From positions 2,418,001-2,482,000 of the forward strand of contig NZ_JAGIOG010000001.1 in assembly GCF_017876595.1 (NCBI RefSeq): 64,000 nt of DNA, in the 5' to 3' direction. Of the stretch, positions 4,767 to 18,626 are shown one piece after another; positions within the stretch are counted from its first letter, which is position 1; every line of letters starts with the position of its first letter. Position numbers and translations under genes: made by a program. This stretch comes from Aeromicrobium fastidiosum. GTDB taxonomy: Bacteria; Actinomycetota; Actinomycetes; Propionibacteriales; Nocardioidaceae. The notes below the pieces were generated by a model. That model was not told where the DNA came from. It ran no database searches and saw only the letters and a program-made list of their open reading frames with translations.

Positions 4767-7067
4767 GTGCGGCTCAGGCTCAGGCGCAAGGTGACAGGGA
4801 CGGAACCGAAGACCCGGAGGCAGTGGGGTGCCGAACGGCGGTCGGAGCCGTTGTCGATCATCCATCCGGTGCCGAGCAGCTCCAAGATCACGCGCGGACG
4901 CATCGGCATCGTCGTCACGATCCTGGCGTGGATCGGCTACGTCGTGTCGACCATCATCCGCCAGTTCATCGACTACGGCGGCAGCTTCCGGTTCACGATG
5001 GAGGCCCTGTCGTACCTCGTCGTCGTGACGTTCCTGACGTTCTCGGCGCTGATGTACCTCGTGGCCAGGCAGGGCGCGCTGATCCGCTTCCGCGACCACG
5101 ACCGCGCGCCCCGAGGGATGCTCGACCGGCACTTCGCCGACACCCGCAGCGAGCGCCTGACGGTGCTCATCCCGTCGTACGCCGAGGAGCCCGACGTCGT
5201 CCGGCTGACGCTGTGGAGCGCGGCGCTGCAGGAGTACCCCTATCTCGACCTGGTGCTGCTGATCGACGACCCGCCGACGCCGAGCGACCCCGACGTGCTC
5301 GCCAAGCTCGAGGCCACGCGCCGGCTGGCCCCCGACATCGAGGAGGCCCTGAGGGCACCCCGCGAGCGGTTCCGGACGTCGCTCGACAAGGCCTCCAAGC
5401 GCCTCGCCACCCGAGGCGTCGACCGCCGGGCGGTGACGACCTTGCTGGCCGACTATCGGGCAGCGGTGACGTGGTTGGAGGACATGGCCGCCGCCGAGGA
5501 GGTCGTCGACCACGTCAGCGAGTTCTTCGTCGACCAGGTCCTGTTCGGGCTGGCCAACGAGCTCAACCTCACCGCGATCGCCCTGCAGGCCGCGCTCGAC
5601 CAGGGCGGCCTGCCTGACGCGGACCGGGTCGAGGAGCTGCACCGCCGTCTGGCCTGGACCTTCCGGGCCGATCTCTCCAGCTTCGAGCGCAAGCGGTACG
5701 CATCGTTGTCGAACGAGGCCAACAAGGCCATGAACGTCAACTCATACCTCGGCCTGATGGGCCACGTGTGGCGACCCAACCGGACCGCGGCGGGCCTGAT
5801 GCTCGACAAGGTCGAGGAGGCGGCACCGGGTGACGTCGACATCCCCGACTCCGGCTACGTCCTGACGCTCGACGCCGACTCGCAGCTGCTGCGCGACTAC
5901 TGCATGCGCCTCGTGTACTACCTCGAGCAGACCGAGAACCAGCACGTCGCGATCATCCAGACGCCGTACTCGTCGTTCCGCGGCGCGCCGACCCGCATCG
6001 AGCGGATCGCGGGGGCGTCGACCGATCTGCAGCACATCCTCCACCAGGGCAAGACGCATCACAACGCGACGTTCTGGGTGGGCGCCAACGCCGTCATCCG
6101 CAAGCGGGCGCTCGAGGACATCGTCGAGGTCGAGAACGTCGGCGGCTACGAGATCAAGACCTACATCCAGGACCGCACCGTCATCGAGGACACCGAGTCG
6201 AGCATCGACATCGGCACCGCGGGATGGTCGCTGGTCAACTATCCCGAGCGGCTGAGCTACAGCGCGACGCCGCCCGACTTCGGGTCGCTCGTCGTGCAGC
6301 GCCGGCGCTGGGCCAACGGCGGTCTGCTGATCATGCCGAAGCTCTGGCGGCAGGTGCGCCAGCGTCGCCACAGCCGCGAGCGGGTGCACCTGACCGAGCT
6401 CGCGCTGCGGGTCAACTACATGGGCTCGATCGCGTGGGCCAGCTTCGGGCTGATGTTCCTGCTGTTCTACCCCTACGACAGCCGGCTCCTGAGCCCGCTG
6501 GTGCTGGTGGCGGCGCTCCCGTACTTCTTGGCGATGGGCAGCGACCTGCGGGCCTGCGGCCACCGGTTCTCCGACATCTTCCGCATCTACGGGTTCAACC
6601 TGGTGCTGCTGCCGGTCAACCTCGCGGGCGTGCTGAAGTCGATCCAACAGGCGTTCACGGGCGAGAAGATCCCGTTCGCCCGCACGCCCAAGGTGCGCAA
6701 CCGCACGGCCGCGCCGGCCCTGCACGTGCTGGTGCCCTACCTGATCGTCGGGTTCTCGATCCTGACGGCGTACCGCGACTTCAATCACCAGAACTGGGGC
6801 AACTTCGGCTTCGCGGTGTTCAACGCGGTGCTGGCCGGCACGGCGATCCGCGCCTACATCGGCGTCCGGGCCTCGCTGGTCGACATGGGCCTCGGCGTCG
6901 TCAACTGGCTGTTCGTCGAGCGTCGTCCCCAGAAGGTCGAGGCCCCACCGCCGACCGACACCGCGATCGACTGGGCGTCGATCCTCTACTACGGCGACCG
7001 CCGGCTGGCCCGCGACCTGAGGCGGCGCGACGACCGGCGACGGAGGCTGCGCAGCGCACCTCGCTAG
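4767..7067 (+). CDS. Processive family 2 glycosyltransferase (cellulose/chitin synthase-like membrane protein)
   Basis: A 766-residue membrane glycosyltransferase. Two membrane segments at about residues 50-105 precede a GT-A domain with VLIPSYAEEPD (~132), LLIDD (~163), TLDADSQL (~366), IEDTES (~471) and QRRRW (~510), the D/DxD/TED/QxxRW set of processive GT2 enzymes. Several membrane segments follow. About 195 residues of charged helix lie between LLIDD and DAD, much longer than usual. The GTG at 4767 has GGGAG upstream. The open frame runs much further upstream, but that part is antisense to the glycosidase and is not coding. The polymer made is unknown. Confidence 0.8.
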   Translation: MRLRLRRKVTGTEPKTRRQWGAERRSEPLSIIHPVPSSSKITRGRIGIVVTILAWIGYVVSTIIRQFIDYGGSFRFTMEALSYLVVVTFLTFSALMYLVARQGALIRFRDHDRAPRGMLDRHFADTRSERLTVLIPSYAEEPDVVRLTLWSAALQEYPYLDLVLLIDDPPTPSDPDVLAKLEATRRLAPDIEEALRAPRERFRTSLDKASKRLATRGVDRRAVTTLLADYRAAVTWLEDMAAAEEVVDHVSEFFVDQVLFGLANELNLTAIALQAALDQGGLPDADRVEELHRRLAWTFRADLSSFERKRYASLSNEANKAMNVNSYLGLMGHVWRPNRTAAGLMLDKVEEAAPGDVDIPDSGYVLTLDADSQLLRDYCMRLVYYLEQTENQHVAIIQTPYSSFRGAPTRIERIAGASTDLQHILHQGKTHHNATFWVGANAVIRKRALEDIVEVENVGGYEIKTYIQDRTVIEDTESSIDIGTAGWSLVNYPERLSYSATPPDFGSLVVQRRRWANGGLLIMPKLWRQVRQRRHSRERVHLTELALRVNYMGSIAWASFGLMFLLFYPYDSRLLSPLVLVAALPYFLAMGSDLRACGHRFSDIFRIYGFNLVLLPVNLAGVLKSIQQAFTGEKIPFARTPKVRNRTAAPALHVLVPYLIVGFSILTAYRDFNHQNWGNFGFAVFNAVLAGTAIRAYIGVRASLVDMGLGVVNWLFVERRPQKVEAPPPTDTAIDWASILYYGDRRLARDLRRRDDRRRRLRSAPR

Positions 7068-12126: not shown

Positions 12127-13521
12127 ATGCGCTCCCACGAGGCCGGTGCCCTGCACGGCCAGGCCGGCGACCGCGGTCCCGCCTGGCTCAAGAACCCCGA
12201 AGACCCCAACCAGCTCGTCCCGCACCTGTGGTCCGACGGCGTCGCGAAGGTCGACGGCGTGCTGACCGTCGCGGGCGAGTCGGTCGTCGACCTCGCCGCC
12301 GAGTTCGGCACCCCCACGTACGTCGTCGACGAGGACGACTTCCGTCGTCGTGCGCGGGCGTTCAAGGACGCGTTCGTCGGAGCCGACGTCTACTACGCCG
12401 GCAAGGCGTTCCTGTGCGTCGCGGCCGCCCGGTGGATCGTCGAGGAGGGTCTCAACCTCGACGTCTGCTCCGGAGGAGAGCTCGCGGTCGCGCTGAAGGC
12501 CGACGTCCCGCCGTCCCGCATCGGCCTGCACGGCAACAACAAGTCGTCGGCCGAGCTGCGTCGCGCCCTCGAGGTCGGGGTGGGTCGCATCATCATCGAC
12601 TCCGTCGAGGAGATCGGACGCCTGCGTGAGCTCACCGCCGAGCTGGGCGTCACGGCACCCGTCATGATCCGGGTGACCGCGGGCGTCGAGGCGCACACGC
12701 ACGAGTACATCTCGACGTCGCACGAGGACCAGAAGTTCGGCTTCTCGATCTCCGGCGGTGACGCGCTCGATGCCGTCCGCCGGGTGGTCGCCGAGCCGGG
12801 TCTCGACCTGCGGGGCCTGCACTCGCACATCGGCTCGCAGATCTTCGTGACCGACGGCTTCGAGGTCGCGGCCCGCCGCGTCCTGCGGTTGCACGCCGAG
12901 GTCGAGCGCGAGCTCGGCGTGGCGATGCCGGAGTTCGACCTCGGCGGCGGCTTCGGCATCGCCTACACGACCCAGGACGACCCGTCGACGCCGGCCGACC
13001 TGGCCGGCAACATGCTCAAGATCGTCGCCGACGAGTGCGCCGCGATGGGCATCGCAGTTCCCCATCTGTCGATCGAGCCCGGGCGGGCGATCGCCGGCCC
13101 GTCGACGTTCACGCTGTACGAGGTCGGCACGAGCAAGTCGGTCGCCCTCGACGGCGGGGCGTCGCGGCGCTACGTCTCGGTGGACGGCGGCATGAGCGAC
13201 AACATCCGTCCGGCGCTCTACGGGGCCGACTACTCGTGCACCCTGGCGTCGCGCGCCTCCGACGCCCCGGCCGTGCTGAGCCGGGTCGTGGGCAAGCACT
13301 GCGAGTCGGGCGACATCGTCGTCAAGGACGAGTTCCTGCCGGGCGACGTGGCCGCGGGCGACCTGCTGGCCGTGCCCGGCACGGGTGCGTACTGTCGGTC
13401 GCTGGCCAGCAACTACAACCACGTCCCGCGCGCGGCGGTCGTCGCGGTGCGCGACGGCGAGGCCCGCGTCATCCTGCGACGCGAGACCGAGGAAGACCTC
13501 CTGACGCTCGACGTCGGGTGA
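12127..13521 (+). CDS. lysA: Diaminopimelate decarboxylase
   Basis: A 464-residue PLP enzyme catalysing the last step of lysine synthesis (meso-diaminopimelate to lysine plus CO2). The alanine-racemase-like barrel carries the PLP lysine in VYYAGKAFLC (~93), HSHIGSQ (~236) and DLGGGFGI. The C-terminal sheet domain has GKHCESGD, with the catalytic Cys, and EFLPGD. The 45-residue N-terminal extension before the fold is usual in actinobacteria. It lies between argS and a membrane gene with which it shares a GTGA overlap. Confidence 0.95.
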   Translation: MRSHEAGALHGQAGDRGPAWLKNPEDPNQLVPHLWSDGVAKVDGVLTVAGESVVDLAAEFGTPTYVVDEDDFRRRARAFKDAFVGADVYYAGKAFLCVAAARWIVEEGLNLDVCSGGELAVALKADVPPSRIGLHGNNKSSAELRRALEVGVGRIIIDSVEEIGRLRELTAELGVTAPVMIRVTAGVEAHTHEYISTSHEDQKFGFSISGGDALDAVRRVVAEPGLDLRGLHSHIGSQIFVTDGFEVAARRVLRLHAEVERELGVAMPEFDLGGGFGIAYTTQDDPSTPADLAGNMLKIVADECAAMGIAVPHLSIEPGRAIAGPSTFTLYEVGTSKSVALDGGASRRYVSVDGGMSDNIRPALYGADYSCTLASRASDAPAVLSRVVGKHCESGDIVVKDEFLPGDVAAGDLLAVPGTGAYCRSLASNYNHVPRAAVVAVRDGEARVILRRETEEDLLTLDVG

Positions 13522-14198
13522 CACCCGTGTCCGCGCCGGTGACGCACCGCTACCTGGCCCGCTTCGTGGCGATGGTCGTCGTCGCGGCGGTCGTCGGCAC
13601 GGGCGTGACGGTCCTCGAGTCGTGGGAGCTCGGCCTCGTCGCCGGGTGGGCGGCGGCCTGCCTGCTCTACGTCGGGTGGGTGTGGCTGGTCATCGGCCGG
13701 ATGGACGCCGCGACGACGGCCGAGCACGCCCGTCGCGAGGACCCCGCGCGTGGCGTGTCGGAGCTGCTGATCCTGGTCGCCTCGGTGGCGAGCCTCGTGG
13801 CAGTGGCGCTGCTGCTGGTCAACGCGCGGGGGGAGTCCGACACCCGGTCGGGTGCGCTGGCCGGGGCTGCCCTCGGCGGCGTCGCCCTGTCGTGGCTGCT
13901 GGTGCACACGCTCTTCACGCTGCGCTACGCCGCCCAGTACTACGGGGGAGAGGCCTACTCGGGCGAGGCCCACGCGGGCGACGTGCGCGACATCGACTTC
14001 AACACCGAGGCACCGCCGCGCTTCACCGACTTCGCCTACGTCGCGTTCTCGGTGGGGATGACGTTCCAGATCTCCGACACCGACCTGCGCACGAGCGACG
14101 TGCGGTCGCTGGTGCTGCGGCACGCCCTGCTGTCGTACGTCTTCGGCACCGTCGTGGTCGCCACGACCATCAACCTGGCGATCAGTCTCGCCGGTTGA
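13518..14198 (+). CDS. DUF1345-family membrane protein
   Basis: A 226-residue integral membrane protein with about five membrane segments. DUF1345 features are visible: HTLFTLRYAAQYY and PPRFTDFAYVAFSVGMTFQISDTD in the C-terminal half. The role of the family is unknown. The GTG start overlaps the lysA stop (GTGA), suggesting coupling. The 3' end overlaps the convergent soxR by 17 nt. An in-frame GTG at 13527 is an alternative start. Confidence 0.75.
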   Translation: MTPVSAPVTHRYLARFVAMVVVAAVVGTGVTVLESWELGLVAGWAAACLLYVGWVWLVIGRMDAATTAEHARREDPARGVSELLILVASVASLVAVALLLVNARGESDTRSGALAGAALGGVALSWLLVHTLFTLRYAAQYYGGEAYSGEAHAGDVRDIDFNTEAPPRFTDFAYVAFSVGMTFQISDTDLRTSDVRSLVLRHALLSYVFGTVVVATTINLAISLAG

Positions 14199-14655
14199 CC
14201 GGTGTCGGCGAGGGGGTCCTGAGCAGGCGGCGCGCGCCCGGACCGTCCACGGCAAGCATGTCGTCGGCGTTGTACAGCGAGCAGCTCCTGAGCGACAGGC
14301 AGCCGCAGCCGATGCATCCGTCGAGGTCGTCGCGCAGCCGCTGCAGCCGGTCGATACGGGCGTCCAGATCGGCCCGCCATCCCCGCGACAGCCGGGCCCA
14401 GTCGGCTTTGGTCGGCACGCGGTCGTCCGGCAGCGTCCCGAGAGCCGTCCGGATCTGGGCCAGCGAGATGCCCAGGCCCTGCGAGACCCGGATGAACGCG
14501 ATGCGACGCAGCACGTCGCGGTGGTACCGGCGCTGGTTGCCCGCGGTGCGGTGGCTCTCGATGAGTCCCTCGCGCTCGTAGAAGTGCAGCGCCGACACGG
14601 CGACGCCGGTGCGCGACGACACCGCAGCCGGTGTGAGGTCGAGGCGCTGGCTCAT
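14182..14655 (-). CDS. soxR: Redox-sensing MerR-family regulator SoxR
   Basis: A 157-residue regulator with a MerR winged helix (AVSSRTGVAVSALHFYEREGL, ~10-30), a dimerisation helix and the [2Fe-2S] cluster motif CIGCGCLSLRSC (CX2CXCX5C, ~114-125) diagnostic of SoxR. In actinobacteria SoxR usually answers redox-cycling compounds and directly controls a few exporters and reductases. The ATG at 14655 is chosen because TATGGT lies 7 nt upstream as a leaderless -10; the earlier ATG at 14667 would fall inside that -10. A SoxR-box-like palindrome covers this promoter. Confidence 0.9.
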   Translation of the reverse strand: MSQRLDLTPAAVSSRTGVAVSALHFYEREGLIESHRTAGNQRRYHRDVLRRIAFIRVSQGLGISLAQIRTALGTLPDDRVPTKADWARLSRGWRADLDARIDRLQRLRDDLDGCIGCGCLSLRSCSLYNADDMLAVDGPGARRLLRTPSPTPVNRRD

Positions 14656-14657
14656 GA

Positions 14658-14675
14658 CCTCAACCATAGGTGAGG
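14658..14675. promoter_or_regulatory. SoxR box over the soxR promoter
   Basis: CCTCAA-CCATAG-GTGAGG is an 18-bp box of the E. coli-type SoxR form CCTCAA-N6-TTGAGG with one mismatch. The predicted soxR -10 (minus-strand TATGGT, 14663-14668) lies inside it, which suggests autorepression. Confidence 0.65.
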
Positions 14676-14700
14676 TCTGTGGCGTGGCGTGGAATGGCGC

Positions 14701-15012
14701 TCAGGAGATCGCGCGGAGACCGGCCGTGACGCCGACGGCCAGCACGACCGCGAGGAGCAGGGGGCCGCGGCGCAGCAGCACCAGGCCGCCGACGGCGACG
14801 CCGACCGTGTGGGCCCCGACGTGCCACCGGTCGCCGGTCGCGAACGTGCTGGTCACGACCAGCGCGGCCAGCAGCGCCGGTGCCATGAGGGCGATGACGC
14901 CCGTCAGGCGAGGCGGGACGTCGCGGCCGCCCAGCGCGACCGGGCCGATGCCCTTGATGATCGCGGTGACGACCGTGCAGCCGGCGATCGTCCACCAGAC
15001 CGTCGCGGTCAT
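14701..15012 (-). CDS. azlD: AzlD-family branched-chain amino acid exporter subunit
   Basis: A 103-residue membrane protein with about four segments (TIAGCTVVTAIIKGIGPVAL; VIALMAPALLAALVV; then a C-terminal pair), the small subunit of the AzlCD exporter. Its ATG overlaps the azlC stop (ATGA). It is followed 45 nt later by soxR on the same strand. Substrates of AzlCD relatives include branched-chain amino acids and 4-azaleucine; the substrate here is not shown. Confidence 0.85.
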   Translation of the reverse strand: MTATVWWTIAGCTVVTAIIKGIGPVALGGRDVPPRLTGVIALMAPALLAALVVTSTFATGDRWHVGAHTVGVAVGGLVLLRRGPLLLAVVLAVGVTAGLRAIS

Positions 15013-15704
15013 GCGGTCCGTCCTCGGCGGAGGCCCCACAGTGCGACGAGGCTCGCGGCCAGGACCGGCAGGCCCGCGGGTGCCACCTCGACGAGGCTCA
15101 GTGCGAGCAGGCCGCCGACGACCGCGATCACGAGCGTCGTGCGGTCCTTCACCTCCGAGATCACGAGCGCCAGGAAGAACGTCGGGTAGATCGCGTCGAG
15201 CCCGTAGCGCGACGGATCGCTGAACAGGTCGCCGCCGAGCGCGCCCAGCGTCGTCCCTGCGATCCACGTGACGTACTGCGGTGCCGTGGAGCCGAAGAGG
15301 AACCACCGGTCGAACGTCCCGTCGCCGCGGTTGGCCATGGCCCACGAGGCGTCGATGACCGCCTGCCCCTGGGTGGCTCGCCACGGAGCACGACCCGGGA
15401 GGGAGGGGCCGAGCGCGATGCCCATCGGCAGGAAGCGGGAGTTCATGAGAGCGGCTGCGGCGATGGCTGCGCCGGCCGTGCCACCCGATGCGATGATCGA
15501 GACCGCCGCGAACTGGGCCGAGCCGGCGAAGACGATCGCCGACATGACGATGGCCGCCTCGGCCGGGAAGCCCGAGTCGCGGGCGAGGATGCCGAACGAC
15601 ATCGACAGCAGGAAGCCGACGGCGGCATAGGGGAGCGCGGCCCGGAAGCCCGCCCGCAGCGAGGTGTTGCGCTGGTCCTTCGCGTCTCCGGGCGTCGAGC
15701 TCAC
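15009..15704 (-). CDS. azlC: AzlC-family branched-chain amino acid exporter subunit
   Basis: A 231-residue large subunit of the AzlCD exporter, with FRAALPYAAVGFLLSMSFGILARDSGF at the N-terminus and the conserved VFAGSAQFAAVSI and ALMNSRFLPMG segments. The GTG at 15704 follows GGAAGGGTG. Its promoter lies in the divergent region shared with the MFS gene, where a SoxR box sits about 48-65 nt upstream of the start. Confidence 0.85.
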   Translation of the reverse strand: MSSTPGDAKDQRNTSLRAGFRAALPYAAVGFLLSMSFGILARDSGFPAEAAIVMSAIVFAGSAQFAAVSIIASGGTAGAAIAAAALMNSRFLPMGIALGPSLPGRAPWRATQGQAVIDASWAMANRGDGTFDRWFLFGSTAPQYVTWIAGTTLGALGGDLFSDPSRYGLDAIYPTFFLALVISEVKDRTTLVIAVVGGLLALSLVEVAPAGLPVLAASLVALWGLRRGRTA

Positions 15705-15747
15705 GGGATCACCCTTCCAGCACGCTCACGGTCGTCGACCGTCGGGC

Positions 15748-15778
15748 TTGACCTCAACCGTCATTGAGGTTGTCGGAT
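15748..15778 (+). promoter_or_regulatory. SoxR-type promoter of the MFS transporter gene
   Basis: A perfect SoxR box CCTCAA-CCGTCA-TTGAGG (15752-15769) lies between -35 TTGACC (15748-15753) and -10 TCGGAT (15773-15778). The spacer is 19 bp, the long spacing of MerR-type activated promoters. Confidence 0.75.
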
Positions 15779-15805
15779 GGAGGCACACCACGACGACGGA
15801 GGAGC

Positions 15806-17170
15806 ATGCAGGCGATCAGACAGCACGAGCTGGGAAGGGCCGACCGGCTCTGGACCGGTCCGCACGGGCGGGTCGTGCTGGGCATCTTCTCGCTGGCGTT
15901 CCTGGTCGCGTTCGAGTCGCTCGCGGTCGCTACCGTCATGCCGGCCGTGGCCGACGAGCTCGGTGGACTGCGGCTGTATGCGCTGGCGTTCGCGGCCCCG
16001 ATCGCCGTCGGCATCGTGTCGATGACGGCGGCCGGTCCCCTGATGGACCGTCGCGGACCGGGTCCCGGGCTCCGCCTGGGCGTGGCGGTCTTCGTCGTCG
16101 GCCTGCTCGTGGCCGGGCTCGCGCGGAGCATGCCGATCTTCTTGGCCGGCCGGGCCGTCCAGGGGCTCGGCATGGGATTCGTCGGCGTGGGGCTGTACGT
16201 CGTGATCGGGCAGACGTTCCACGAAGACCTGCGCGCCCGGGTGTTCACCGTCGTGACGAGTGCCTGGGTGCTGCCGGCGCTGGTCGGACCGTTCATCGCC
16301 GGGGCCGTGACGGACCTGGTCGGCTGGCGGTGGGTCTTCCTGGCTGTCCCGGCCATCGCCGTCGCCTCGCTCGGCCTGATCTGGGAGGCGCTCGACGCGA
16401 TCGAGGGCGATGCCGAGGTCGTCGTCGATCGGTTCCGCGTGGTCTGGGCCGTGATCGTCGCCACCGGCGTGGTCGCCGTCAGCGTCGGAGGGCAGCGCGT
16501 GGTGCCGTGGTGGCCGGTCGTCGTGGTCGTCGCCGTGATCGCCACGCTGCGGTACGCATCGCGTCTTCTGCCGGCCGGGGTCTGGCGAGCACGTCGCGGC
16601 CTGCCGGTTGTCGTCATCACTCGAAGCCTGCTCTGTGCTGCGTTCCTCGGCGCGGAGACCTACATCCCGCTGTCACTCGTGCAGCACCGGGCCCTGAGCG
16701 TCACCCGAGCGGGCCTGCTGCTCACCAGCGCTGCTGTCCTGTGGTTCACGGGCGCGTGGCTGGCGGCGCACGTGCCCGCTCTGTCGTCCAAGCCGCTGCG
16801 GGTACGGCTGGGAGCGGCGTGCGTGCTGACGGGGGTGGGAGCGGGGTTCCTGACGTTGCTGCCCGGGGTGCCCGTCTACGTCGTGACGGCCTGGTGGGCC
16901 GTCGGCGGTCTGGGGATGGGCCTCGCCGTGTCGACGCTGGGGGTGTTGATGCTCGACCACTCGACGCCGGCCGAGCAGGGAGCCAACAGTGCGGCGATGC
17001 AGACGAGCGACGCGGTGCTCGAGTCGTTGGTGCTCGCGCTGGGCTGTGTCGTGTTCGCGATCATGCTGGCCCAGCACGAACAGGGCGGCTACCTGCTCGT
17101 GTTCGGTGCTGCCGCAGCCGTCGCGGCGCTGGGCGTGCTGGCCTCGTACCGAGTGACCAGCCCCGGATGA
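15806..17170 (+). CDS. MFS multidrug exporter, probable SoxR target
   Basis: A 454-residue major facilitator of the drug:H+ antiporter type, with AVATVMPAVADELGG (segment 1 and following loop), PLMDRRG (loop 2-3) and GRAVQGLGMG (segment 4). About 12-14 segments are predicted by eye. The ATG at 15806 follows GGAGGAG. The promoter carries a canonical SoxR box in a 19-bp spacer, so expression should rise with redox-active compounds. A very long hairpin terminates it. Confidence 0.85.
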   Translation: MQAIRQHELGRADRLWTGPHGRVVLGIFSLAFLVAFESLAVATVMPAVADELGGLRLYALAFAAPIAVGIVSMTAAGPLMDRRGPGPGLRLGVAVFVVGLLVAGLARSMPIFLAGRAVQGLGMGFVGVGLYVVIGQTFHEDLRARVFTVVTSAWVLPALVGPFIAGAVTDLVGWRWVFLAVPAIAVASLGLIWEALDAIEGDAEVVVDRFRVVWAVIVATGVVAVSVGGQRVVPWWPVVVVVAVIATLRYASRLLPAGVWRARRGLPVVVITRSLLCAAFLGAETYIPLSLVQHRALSVTRAGLLLTSAAVLWFTGAWLAAHVPALSSKPLRVRLGAACVLTGVGAGFLTLLPGVPVYVVTAWWAVGGLGMGLAVSTLGVLMLDHSTPAEQGANSAAMQTSDAVLESLVLALGCVVFAIMLAQHEQGGYLLVFGAAAAVAALGVLASYRVTSPG

Positions 17171-17180
17171 CCGTCGGCGT

Positions 17181-17229
17181 CGGTGCGCCAGCGTCCACGC
17201 GGCGGCCGACCGTGGACGCTGACGCACCG
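17181..17229 (+). terminator. Long terminator hairpin after the MFS gene
   Basis: A 19-bp inverted repeat with one mismatch (17181-17199 with 17211-17229, 11-nt loop) separates the MFS gene from hom. Confidence 0.75.
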
Positions 17230-17279
17230 CCCGACGTCCGCGGTTGCAGGGGAGTGCGAGAACCGGCCGCGTGCGCCGA

Positions 17280-17285
17280 TACCCT
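17280..17285 (+). promoter_or_regulatory. Leaderless -10 element of hom
   Basis: TACCCT is followed by 6 nt and the GTG start of hom, without a Shine-Dalgarno. Confidence 0.5.
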
Positions 17286-17291
17286 TGCCCG

Positions 17292-18626
17292 GTGAACCCT
17301 TCATCGTCAGATGCCGTCTCGTGGACCCCCGGACGTCCGCTCCGTGTCGCCCTGCTGGGCTGCGGGGTCGTGGGCACGGAGGTCGCCCGGCTGCTGACGC
17401 GTGACGCCGACGAGCTGGCCCAGCGGGTCGGCGCGCCGCTCGAGCTGGTCGGCATCGCCGTGCGCCGGCTCGGCCGCGAGCGCGACCTCGACGTCCCCGC
17501 CGAGCTGTTCACGACGGATGCCGCGGGGCTCGTCTCGCGCGGCGACATCGACGTCGTGATCGAGGTCATCGGCGGCATCGACCTGGCTCGCGACCTGATC
17601 CTGTCGGCGCTCGAGCACGGTGCCTCGGTCGTCACGGCCAACAAGGCGCTGCTCGCCGAGGACGGCGCGACGCTGTTCGAGGCGGCGCACAAGGCCGAGC
17701 GCGATCTCTACTTCGAGGCTGCCGTCGCCGGTGCGATCCCGATCGTCCGACCCCTGCGCGAGTCGCTCGCCGGCGACCGGGTGCAGCGCGTGCTGGGCAT
17801 CGTCAACGGCACCACCAACTTCATCCTCGACGCCATGACCACGACGGGTCAGGGCTTCTCCGAGGCGCTGGACGAGGCACAGCGGCTGGGCTACGCCGAG
17901 GCCGATCCGACCGCCGACATCGAGGGCTTCGACGCCGCCTCCAAGGCCGCGATCCTCGCCGGTCTCGCGTTCCACACCCGCGTGACGATCGGCGACGTGC
18001 ACCGCGAAGGCATCACCGACGTCACGGCCGCCGATGTGCGCTCGGCCGAGGAGATGGGCTGCGTCGTCAAGCTGCTGGCGATCTGCGAGCGCCGCGACAC
18101 CCCCGACGGACCAGCCGTCTCGGCCCGCGTGCACCCCGCGATGATCCCGCTGACGCACCCGCTCGCGAGCGTCCGCGGCGCCTACAACGCGGTCTTCGTC
18201 GAGAGCGAGTCGGCCGGCGAGCTGATGTTCTACGGCCCCGGAGCCGGCGGCGCGCCCACCGCGAGCGCCGTGCTCGGCGACGTCGTGTCGGTCGCCCGCA
18301 ACCGCCGCAGCGACGTCTTCGGACCCGGCGAGTCGACCCACGCCCAGCTCGAGGTGCTCGACATGGGCCGTGCCCGCACCCGCTACCACGTCTCGATCGA
18401 CGTCGACGACCGCGCGGGCGTGCTCGCCTCGGTCGCCGGGGCCTTCGCGGAGTACGACGTCTCGATCAAGACGGTGCGGCAGGAGGGCAGCGGGTCCGAC
18501 GCCCAGCTGGTCATCGTGACCCACGAGGCCGAGGACGCCGCGCTGTCGGCGACCGTCGCGTCGCTGCGGGGTCTCGACATGGTGCGAGACGTGACATCGG
18601 TGATGCGCGTCGAGGGAGGATTCTGA
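17292..18626 (+). CDS. hom: Homoserine dehydrogenase
   Basis: A 444-residue enzyme reducing aspartate semialdehyde to homoserine. The Rossmann motif [14 protein letters not shown] lies at ~18-31, the catalytic-domain ANKALL at ~116-121, and GTTNFILD follows. The C-terminal 80 residues form an ACT domain ([20 protein letters not shown]), which in actinobacterial Hom usually mediates threonine feedback. It heads hom-thrC-thrB; thrC overlaps its stop (TGATG). Confidence 0.95.

Follow-up and report, generated by a model that had tools for sequence, protein, structure and literature searches.

When one regulator controls both itself and a divergent neighbour, do two operator sites divide the work between them, and what becomes of genes caught between the two? 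The window (the whole stretch of Aeromicrobium fastidiosum DNA that was analysed, 64,000 nucleotides) raises this question by carrying one SoxR box at the promoter of an MFS transporter gene and another at the start of soxR, with the gene pair azlCD in between. The original prediction had placed the boxes for opposite outcomes, activation of the transporter and repression of soxR, and had suggested that azlCD could share either control. That SoxR can be both activator and autorepressor is already known; here the two roles would lie on separate sites. The features concerned are listed below by position in the window.

14182-14655, minus strand: soxR, start ATG 14653-14655 (TIGR01950 SoxR, 208.9 bits, cut-off 116.9)
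14658-14675: SoxR box 1, soxR side, CCTCAACCATAGGTGAGG, one mismatch, in the arm distal to soxR
14663-14668, minus strand: predicted -10 of leaderless soxR, TATGGT, lying within box 1 (TA...T in 7/7 two-box loci)
14701-15012, minus strand: azlD (PF05437, 47.6 bits, cut-off 23.7)
15009-15704, minus strand: azlC, GTG start (PF03591, 110.5 bits, cut-off 32.1)
15711-15716, minus strand: AAGGGT, resembling a -10 and predicted to serve a leaderless azlC, 6 nt ahead of the GTG
15748-15753, plus strand: predicted MFS promoter -35, TTGACC
15752-15769: SoxR box 2, MFS side, CCTCAACCGTCATTGAGG, perfect CCTCAA-N6-TTGAGG
15773-15778, plus strand: predicted MFS promoter -10, TCGGAT
15806-15835, plus strand: first ten codons of MFS (MQAIRQHELG), which seem to derive from a lost quinone oxidoreductase (QOR) gene
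15806-17170, plus strand: MFS efflux transporter, predicted SoxR-activated gene (PF07690, 101.8 bits)

The regulator is SoxR by the curated model and by alignment of its cysteines. It matches E. coli SoxR (2zhg) with an E-value of 4.4e-46, and its segment CIGCGCLSLRSC aligns to all four E. coli SoxR cysteines in the C-terminal CX2CXCX5C arrangement that supplies the cluster ligands of SoxR; sensing through a [2Fe-2S] cluster is predicted. AzlC and AzlD are adjacent and both exceed their Pfam cut-offs, as expected of an AzlCD exporter, with AzlC scoring 59.9 bits against the NCBIfam azaleucine-resistance equivalog TIGR00346, far below its cut-off of 332.35. For the MFS protein the best NCBIfam model is SdrM (78.7 bits, far under the cut-off of 550), a sub-threshold likeness to multidrug pumps.

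Geometry of the two boxes

Both boxes are present as described in the original prediction. Box 2 lies inside the 19-bp spacer between the predicted -35 and -10 of the MFS gene, its first two bases overlapping the -35, and the -10 itself is a poor match except at T1, A5 and T6. As far as geometry goes, this is a SoxR-activated promoter, with the box between -35 and -10 at the over-long spacing (15748-15778), and the claim of a perfect box in a 19-bp spacer is borne out. Box 1 has the geometry of an autorepression site, since TATGGT forms bases 8-13 of the box read on the soxR strand and the soxR ATG at 14655 lies 7 nt past it. The box had been said to cover a leaderless -10, which holds, and to end 3 nt from the start codon, which needs correction as only two bases intervene. 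An in-frame upstream ATG (14665-14667) falls within the -10, so it would be unusable by a transcript from the predicted promoter; no -35 was recognised for soxR. A distance of 1,076 bp separates the two boxes, next to soxR. Box 2 precedes the azlC start by 47 bp and lies in the intergenic region that azlC shares with MFS.

In E. coli, SoxR represses soxR and activates soxS, a second regulator, from a promoter with a 19-bp spacer. No gene for such a second regulator lies opposite the soxR box of the window. In the soxR-mfsA system of S. maltophilia (PMC4411124), SoxR activates a divergent MFS pump gene through a box in a 19-bp spacer behind a TTGACC -35. It also represses soxR, binding across the start region of that gene, and soxR mRNA is about 15-fold more abundant when SoxR is missing; the soxR 5′ end was mapped to 21 bp before the ATG. 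The window has the same components, namely SoxR, a divergent MFS gene, TTGACC and the 19-bp spacer, and its box consensus is the E. coli consensus as quoted in PMC4411124. However, S. maltophilia has one shared box and a soxR with a mapped leader, whereas the window has two boxes 1.1 kb apart with azlCD between them and a soxR predicted to be leaderless.

We propose that redox-active compounds would oxidise the [2Fe-2S] cluster of SoxR, and that SoxR on box 2 would then distort the over-long 19-bp spacer and switch the MFS pump on. On box 1, SoxR in either redox state would cover the -10 of leaderless soxR and damp its transcription, while azlCD would be transcribed from its own leaderless promoter and is probably no SoxR target. 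SoxR binding to both boxes and the transcription starts are what we infer from sequence. Activation of MFS from box 2 is highly probable, because it agrees with established SoxR biology and because S. maltophilia has the same -35 and spacer. Autorepression at box 1 seems likely, and is held less firmly because the box is imperfect and decaying in relatives. The assignment of an activation geometry to MFS and a repression geometry to soxR draws support from position, from conservation in relatives and from the S. maltophilia precedent.

Could the boxes be chance occurrences?

For the window by itself, finding two sites with no more than two mismatches is unremarkable, as 0.94 are expected and 28 of 100 shuffles reach two. 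Across the genome (3,925,785 bases, 3.93 Mb) the same threshold gives 25 sites compared to 35 for a reversed control, and the site count at this threshold was dropped as evidence for lack of enrichment. Sites with zero or one mismatch number only three in those 3,925,785 bases, and boxes 1 and 2 are two of them. The third (genome position 985302) has a SoxR-type promoter on neither strand, and with only three such sites, one of them lacking that promoter, a wider SoxR regulon in this genome was rejected. A palindrome at genome position 3588937 has two mismatches against the full consensus. The box positions are kept in relatives, which argues further against chance.

Predicted division of labour in relatives

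Searches with SoxR (E-values up to 1e-25) found matches in 109 of 149 family genomes and in 39 of 49 from the genus Aeromicrobium. We took 40 soxR loci (32 from the genus and 8 from elsewhere in the family, in stretches mostly of 9.5 kb) and 12 more genus loci, leaving the other family matches out of this long-stretch comparison; 41 genus loci, the window included, have a usable soxR. A box was counted as facing a QOR or MFS gene if the gene starts within about 260 bp of it with no second box between. By this definition 32 of the 41 loci have such a box (21 with a single element and 11 with two), and nine have other neighbours. The commonest layout (21/41) is thus one in which a single box separates soxR from a QOR or MFS gene.

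All 32 boxes facing QOR or MFS have TTGACC together with T....T at 19 bp, the latter pattern being found at 1.7% of random places. Among the remaining 16 genus boxes TTGACC is found in five and T....T in six, all of them in L056, L062-L065 and L162, where our queries found no QOR or MFS gene adjoining the box; L060, L155 and L161, also without QOR or MFS, have neither. In L056 an activation-type box (5041-5058, with soxR set to the minus strand; TTGACC/TTCGAT) has no recognised QOR or MFS gene opposite. With the same orientation, an extra box lies just beyond the soxR 3′ end in L064 (158-175) and L065 (4576-4593), whose SoxR proteins are divergent, at about 50% identity.

Seven loci (the window, L034-L038 and L045) have two boxes, and L039-L042 bring the two-element loci to eleven. 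On the soxR side of the seven two-box loci, TTGACC and T....T are both absent (0/7 each) and TA...T stands 6 or 7 nt before an ATG in every case (7/7); by sequence inspection, the MFS-side boxes have no TA...T in the soxR direction. Both promoter signatures coincide in one box at only 8 of the 21 single-element genus loci (L046, L049-L051, L053-L055 and L160), and likewise at L066 and L069 outside the genus. In the remaining 13, soxR is preceded by a leader and no promoter was recognised for it. No box with two mismatches or fewer is present at three further family loci outside the genus (L068, L071 and L072).

The same comparison bears on whether box 1 represses at all, as it could be a relic retained mainly for the soxR -10 embedded in it, leaving soxR constitutive with no useful repression by SoxR. 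The soxR-side element has more mismatches than its MFS-side partner at 8 of the 11 two-element loci, the same number at two and fewer at one (a count over related loci, without a formal test). Moreover, L039 and L041 retain the soxR -10 and no recognisable box, L040 has one arm left and L042 three mismatches. Against this, box 1 retains 11 of its 12 arm positions in the window, and its counterparts in the six remaining two-box loci retain 10 or 11; other actinobacteria, too, repeatedly have boxes with zero to two mismatches over soxR starts of the leaderless type (see below). We thus consider the relic a possible but doubtful account, and autorepression at box 1 the preferred one. Autorepression at the soxR-side element may nonetheless be weak or dispensable, because box 1 is mismatched, soxR-side elements are the worse ones and the box is gone in L039 and L041. 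As some relatives appear to have dropped autorepression, the group would provide a natural test of what autorepression is worth.

To place this arrangement more widely we surveyed 80 named soxR loci, the best 80 of 581 found. A box at up to two mismatches lies within 300 bp of soxR in 65 of these 80. Of the 20 loci in which soxR starts 5-9 nt past box base 13, 19 have TA...T, compared to 20 of the 45 others (Fisher P 8e-5, overstated since the loci are related), and in 18 of those 19 the other strand lacks a SoxR-type promoter. A soxR -10 inside its own operator at leaderless distance is thus predicted to recur in several genera, Mycolicibacterium, Nocardia and Nonomuraea among them. In Nocardioides alcanivorans (L082), a perfect box with TTGACC/TCGGAT is accompanied by a degenerate box (ATGACC, no T....T) over a TA...T 7 nt before an ATG. 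The pairing is the same as in the Aeromicrobium two-box loci, and could be either shared or independent.

Transcription of soxR could alternatively come mainly by read-through from azlCD, placing soxR under the azlC promoter with box 1 as a weak internal roadblock. The three genes are indeed collinear on one strand with short gaps, azlD ending 45 nt before the soxR start. However, a -10 at leaderless distance is kept in L036-L042, where no azlCD lies upstream of soxR, which makes read-through an improbable main source of soxR transcripts.

History of the second box

We built a tree of ArgS plus LysA for the 27 loci that hold both genes; a tree of LysA only had poorer resolution. A single clade of 15 rows (support 100/99) takes in all 11 two-element loci. 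Each of the 12 rows outside it, outgroup included, has one box, and a single box likewise precedes soxR in the genus loci left out of the tree. The clade also contains two one-box loci, L158 and L155, and two that lack an intact soxR, L154 and L156. L036 and L037 have no azlCD between their two boxes, whose starts are 41 bp apart; azlCD separates the boxes in the window, L034, L035 and L045.

The simplest reading of this distribution is that the second element arose once in the ancestor of the 15-row clade and that the roles were divided afterwards, a single-box ancestral layout giving way to one in which each box would serve one gene; tandem duplication would presumably have been the source. 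A more specific version holds that an ancestral Aeromicrobium underwent a single duplication of a bidirectional operator, whose copies then subfunctionalised by complementary loss of elements, one retaining activation only and the other repression only. We would give this version even odds. The one-box ancestor of the clade may not have been bifunctional, as only 8 of the 21 single-box loci have the TA...T of soxR within the box. Living species provide examples of the two-box state, of its decay and of a foreign gene pair lying between the copies.

azlCD as a neighbour

AzlC was found in 17 of the 49 genus genomes (E-values up to 1e-25), and 16 azlC loci were examined, the azlC stretch of genome G155 being left out. 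The positions are scattered: azlC lies between soxR and MFS in four (the window, L034, L035 and L045), beyond MFS in two (L039 and L041), on the lysA side of soxR in five (L057-L059, L061 and L157), next to a soxR remnant or broken soxR, with no MFS, in two (L154 and L155), without soxR in two (L156 and L165) and on a different contig from soxR in two (L163 of G157, and G155). A SoxR box lies within 150 bp upstream of the estimated azlC start in 4 of the 16 loci, only those with a divergent QOR or MFS gene; none of the 12 others has a box within that distance. In 11 of 16 loci the nearest azlC start is preceded, at a distance of exactly 6 nt, by an nA...T hexamer, against a background of 2.05%. 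It is found at 7 nt in L041 and at 8 nt in L165, and L057-L059 have no clear start.

Of the 15 rows in the clade, 12 have both soxR and MFS, and six of these 12 have azlCD; in the other three, soxR and MFS are both absent or broken and azlCD is kept in all three. In those three genomes no MFS relative was found at E-values up to 1e-20, though one of them is only 58% complete. At L154 (4069-4143) and L155 (4769-4990) a soxR remnant or broken soxR can be seen where MFS has been lost and azlCD retained. The flanks of up to 6 kb around soxR in the 80 named loci (the best 80 of 581) yielded no AzlC or AzlD relative scoring over 45 bits. The linkage of SoxR to AzlCD had been called unusual, and this survey bears that out; it looks positional.

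A true SoxR target in azlCD, as an amino-acid or xenobiotic exporter induced or repressed from box 2, would fit the short distance from that box to azlC across a shared intergenic region, but is very unlikely and was rejected, as the azlC strand has no TTGA..-19-T....T at box 2, azlC has its own start-adjacent hexamer, 12 of the 16 azlC loci have no box, azlCD persists in genomes without soxR and MFS, and it was undetected near soxR in the best 80 of 581 loci. The suggestion that azlCD shares either SoxR control is thus contradicted. The best reading of the scattered positions, the box-free azlC loci, the hexamer and the retention without soxR and MFS is that azlCD is an independent neighbour within a variable interval, and its independence of SoxR control appears very probable. 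We infer, tentatively, that azlCD entered rather than left; a tree of AzlC plus AzlD does not resolve the deeper order. Proximity alone is no ground for placing azlCD in the SoxR regulon.

The interval concerned runs from lysA to hom (window 12127-18626; L034-L066 and L154-L165) and holds azlCD, soxR, QOR, MFS and a DUF1345 gene in differing orders. It varies greatly among species and is an apparent hotspot of local rearrangement. In the window the DUF1345 gene (13527-14198) is convergent with soxR, and their 3′ ends overlap by 17 bases (14182-14198).

A proposed split-operator module

Taken jointly, the predicted promoters point to a split-operator SoxR module that would activate a pump from one box and repress its own gene from the other, with azlCD independent of both. 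We put the probability of this joint reading at roughly 0.55, a value that comes from combining strong confidence in pump activation and in the independence of azlCD with a more guarded confidence in autorepression. If true, it would show concretely how the functions of an operator can be divided in bacteria, close relatives having one box, two boxes or a decayed arrangement. Among the matches listed from the open-licence literature, judged by titles and the openings of abstracts, there is no description of a split SoxR operator, no report of a leaderless soxR with its -10 in its box and none of SoxR control of AzlCD; SoxR and AzlC are mentioned together only in a study of acid tolerance in Fibrobacter.

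Apparent capture of a leader by the transporter gene

The QOR of the genus is a zinc-type quinone oxidoreductase by similarity, matching Pfam ADH domains and quinone reductases in the PDB; it scores 141.3 bits against TIGR02824, under the cut-off of 296.8. In S. coelicolor, SoxR has six targets, of which the quinone oxidoreductase SCO0320ext is a direct one with a soxbox promoter (PMC4146615). The likeness to Aeromicrobium is that an actinobacterial SoxR has boxes facing a quinone oxidoreductase; unlike the six targets of S. coelicolor, there is one soxR-linked module here, and QOR has been lost in the window. Relocation of QOR within the window's genome was considered and rejected, as the genome has no close relative of it, the best match having 33% identity.

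The window MFS gene apparently took over the leader and the first ten codons of the lost QOR gene. Its MQAIRQHELG resembles the QOR starts MHAIRQHELG (L035) and MQAIRQYELG (L040), the leader is similar, and MFS sequence follows. A transporter gene would thus be able to capture the promoter, the ribosome-binding site and the first codons of a deleted enzyme gene. In L039, L041, L042 and L043 the leader is similar and the N-terminal similarity weak. Remnants of QOR persist elsewhere, with 39 codons in L037 and 23 codons in L034, the latter ending on the MFS start.
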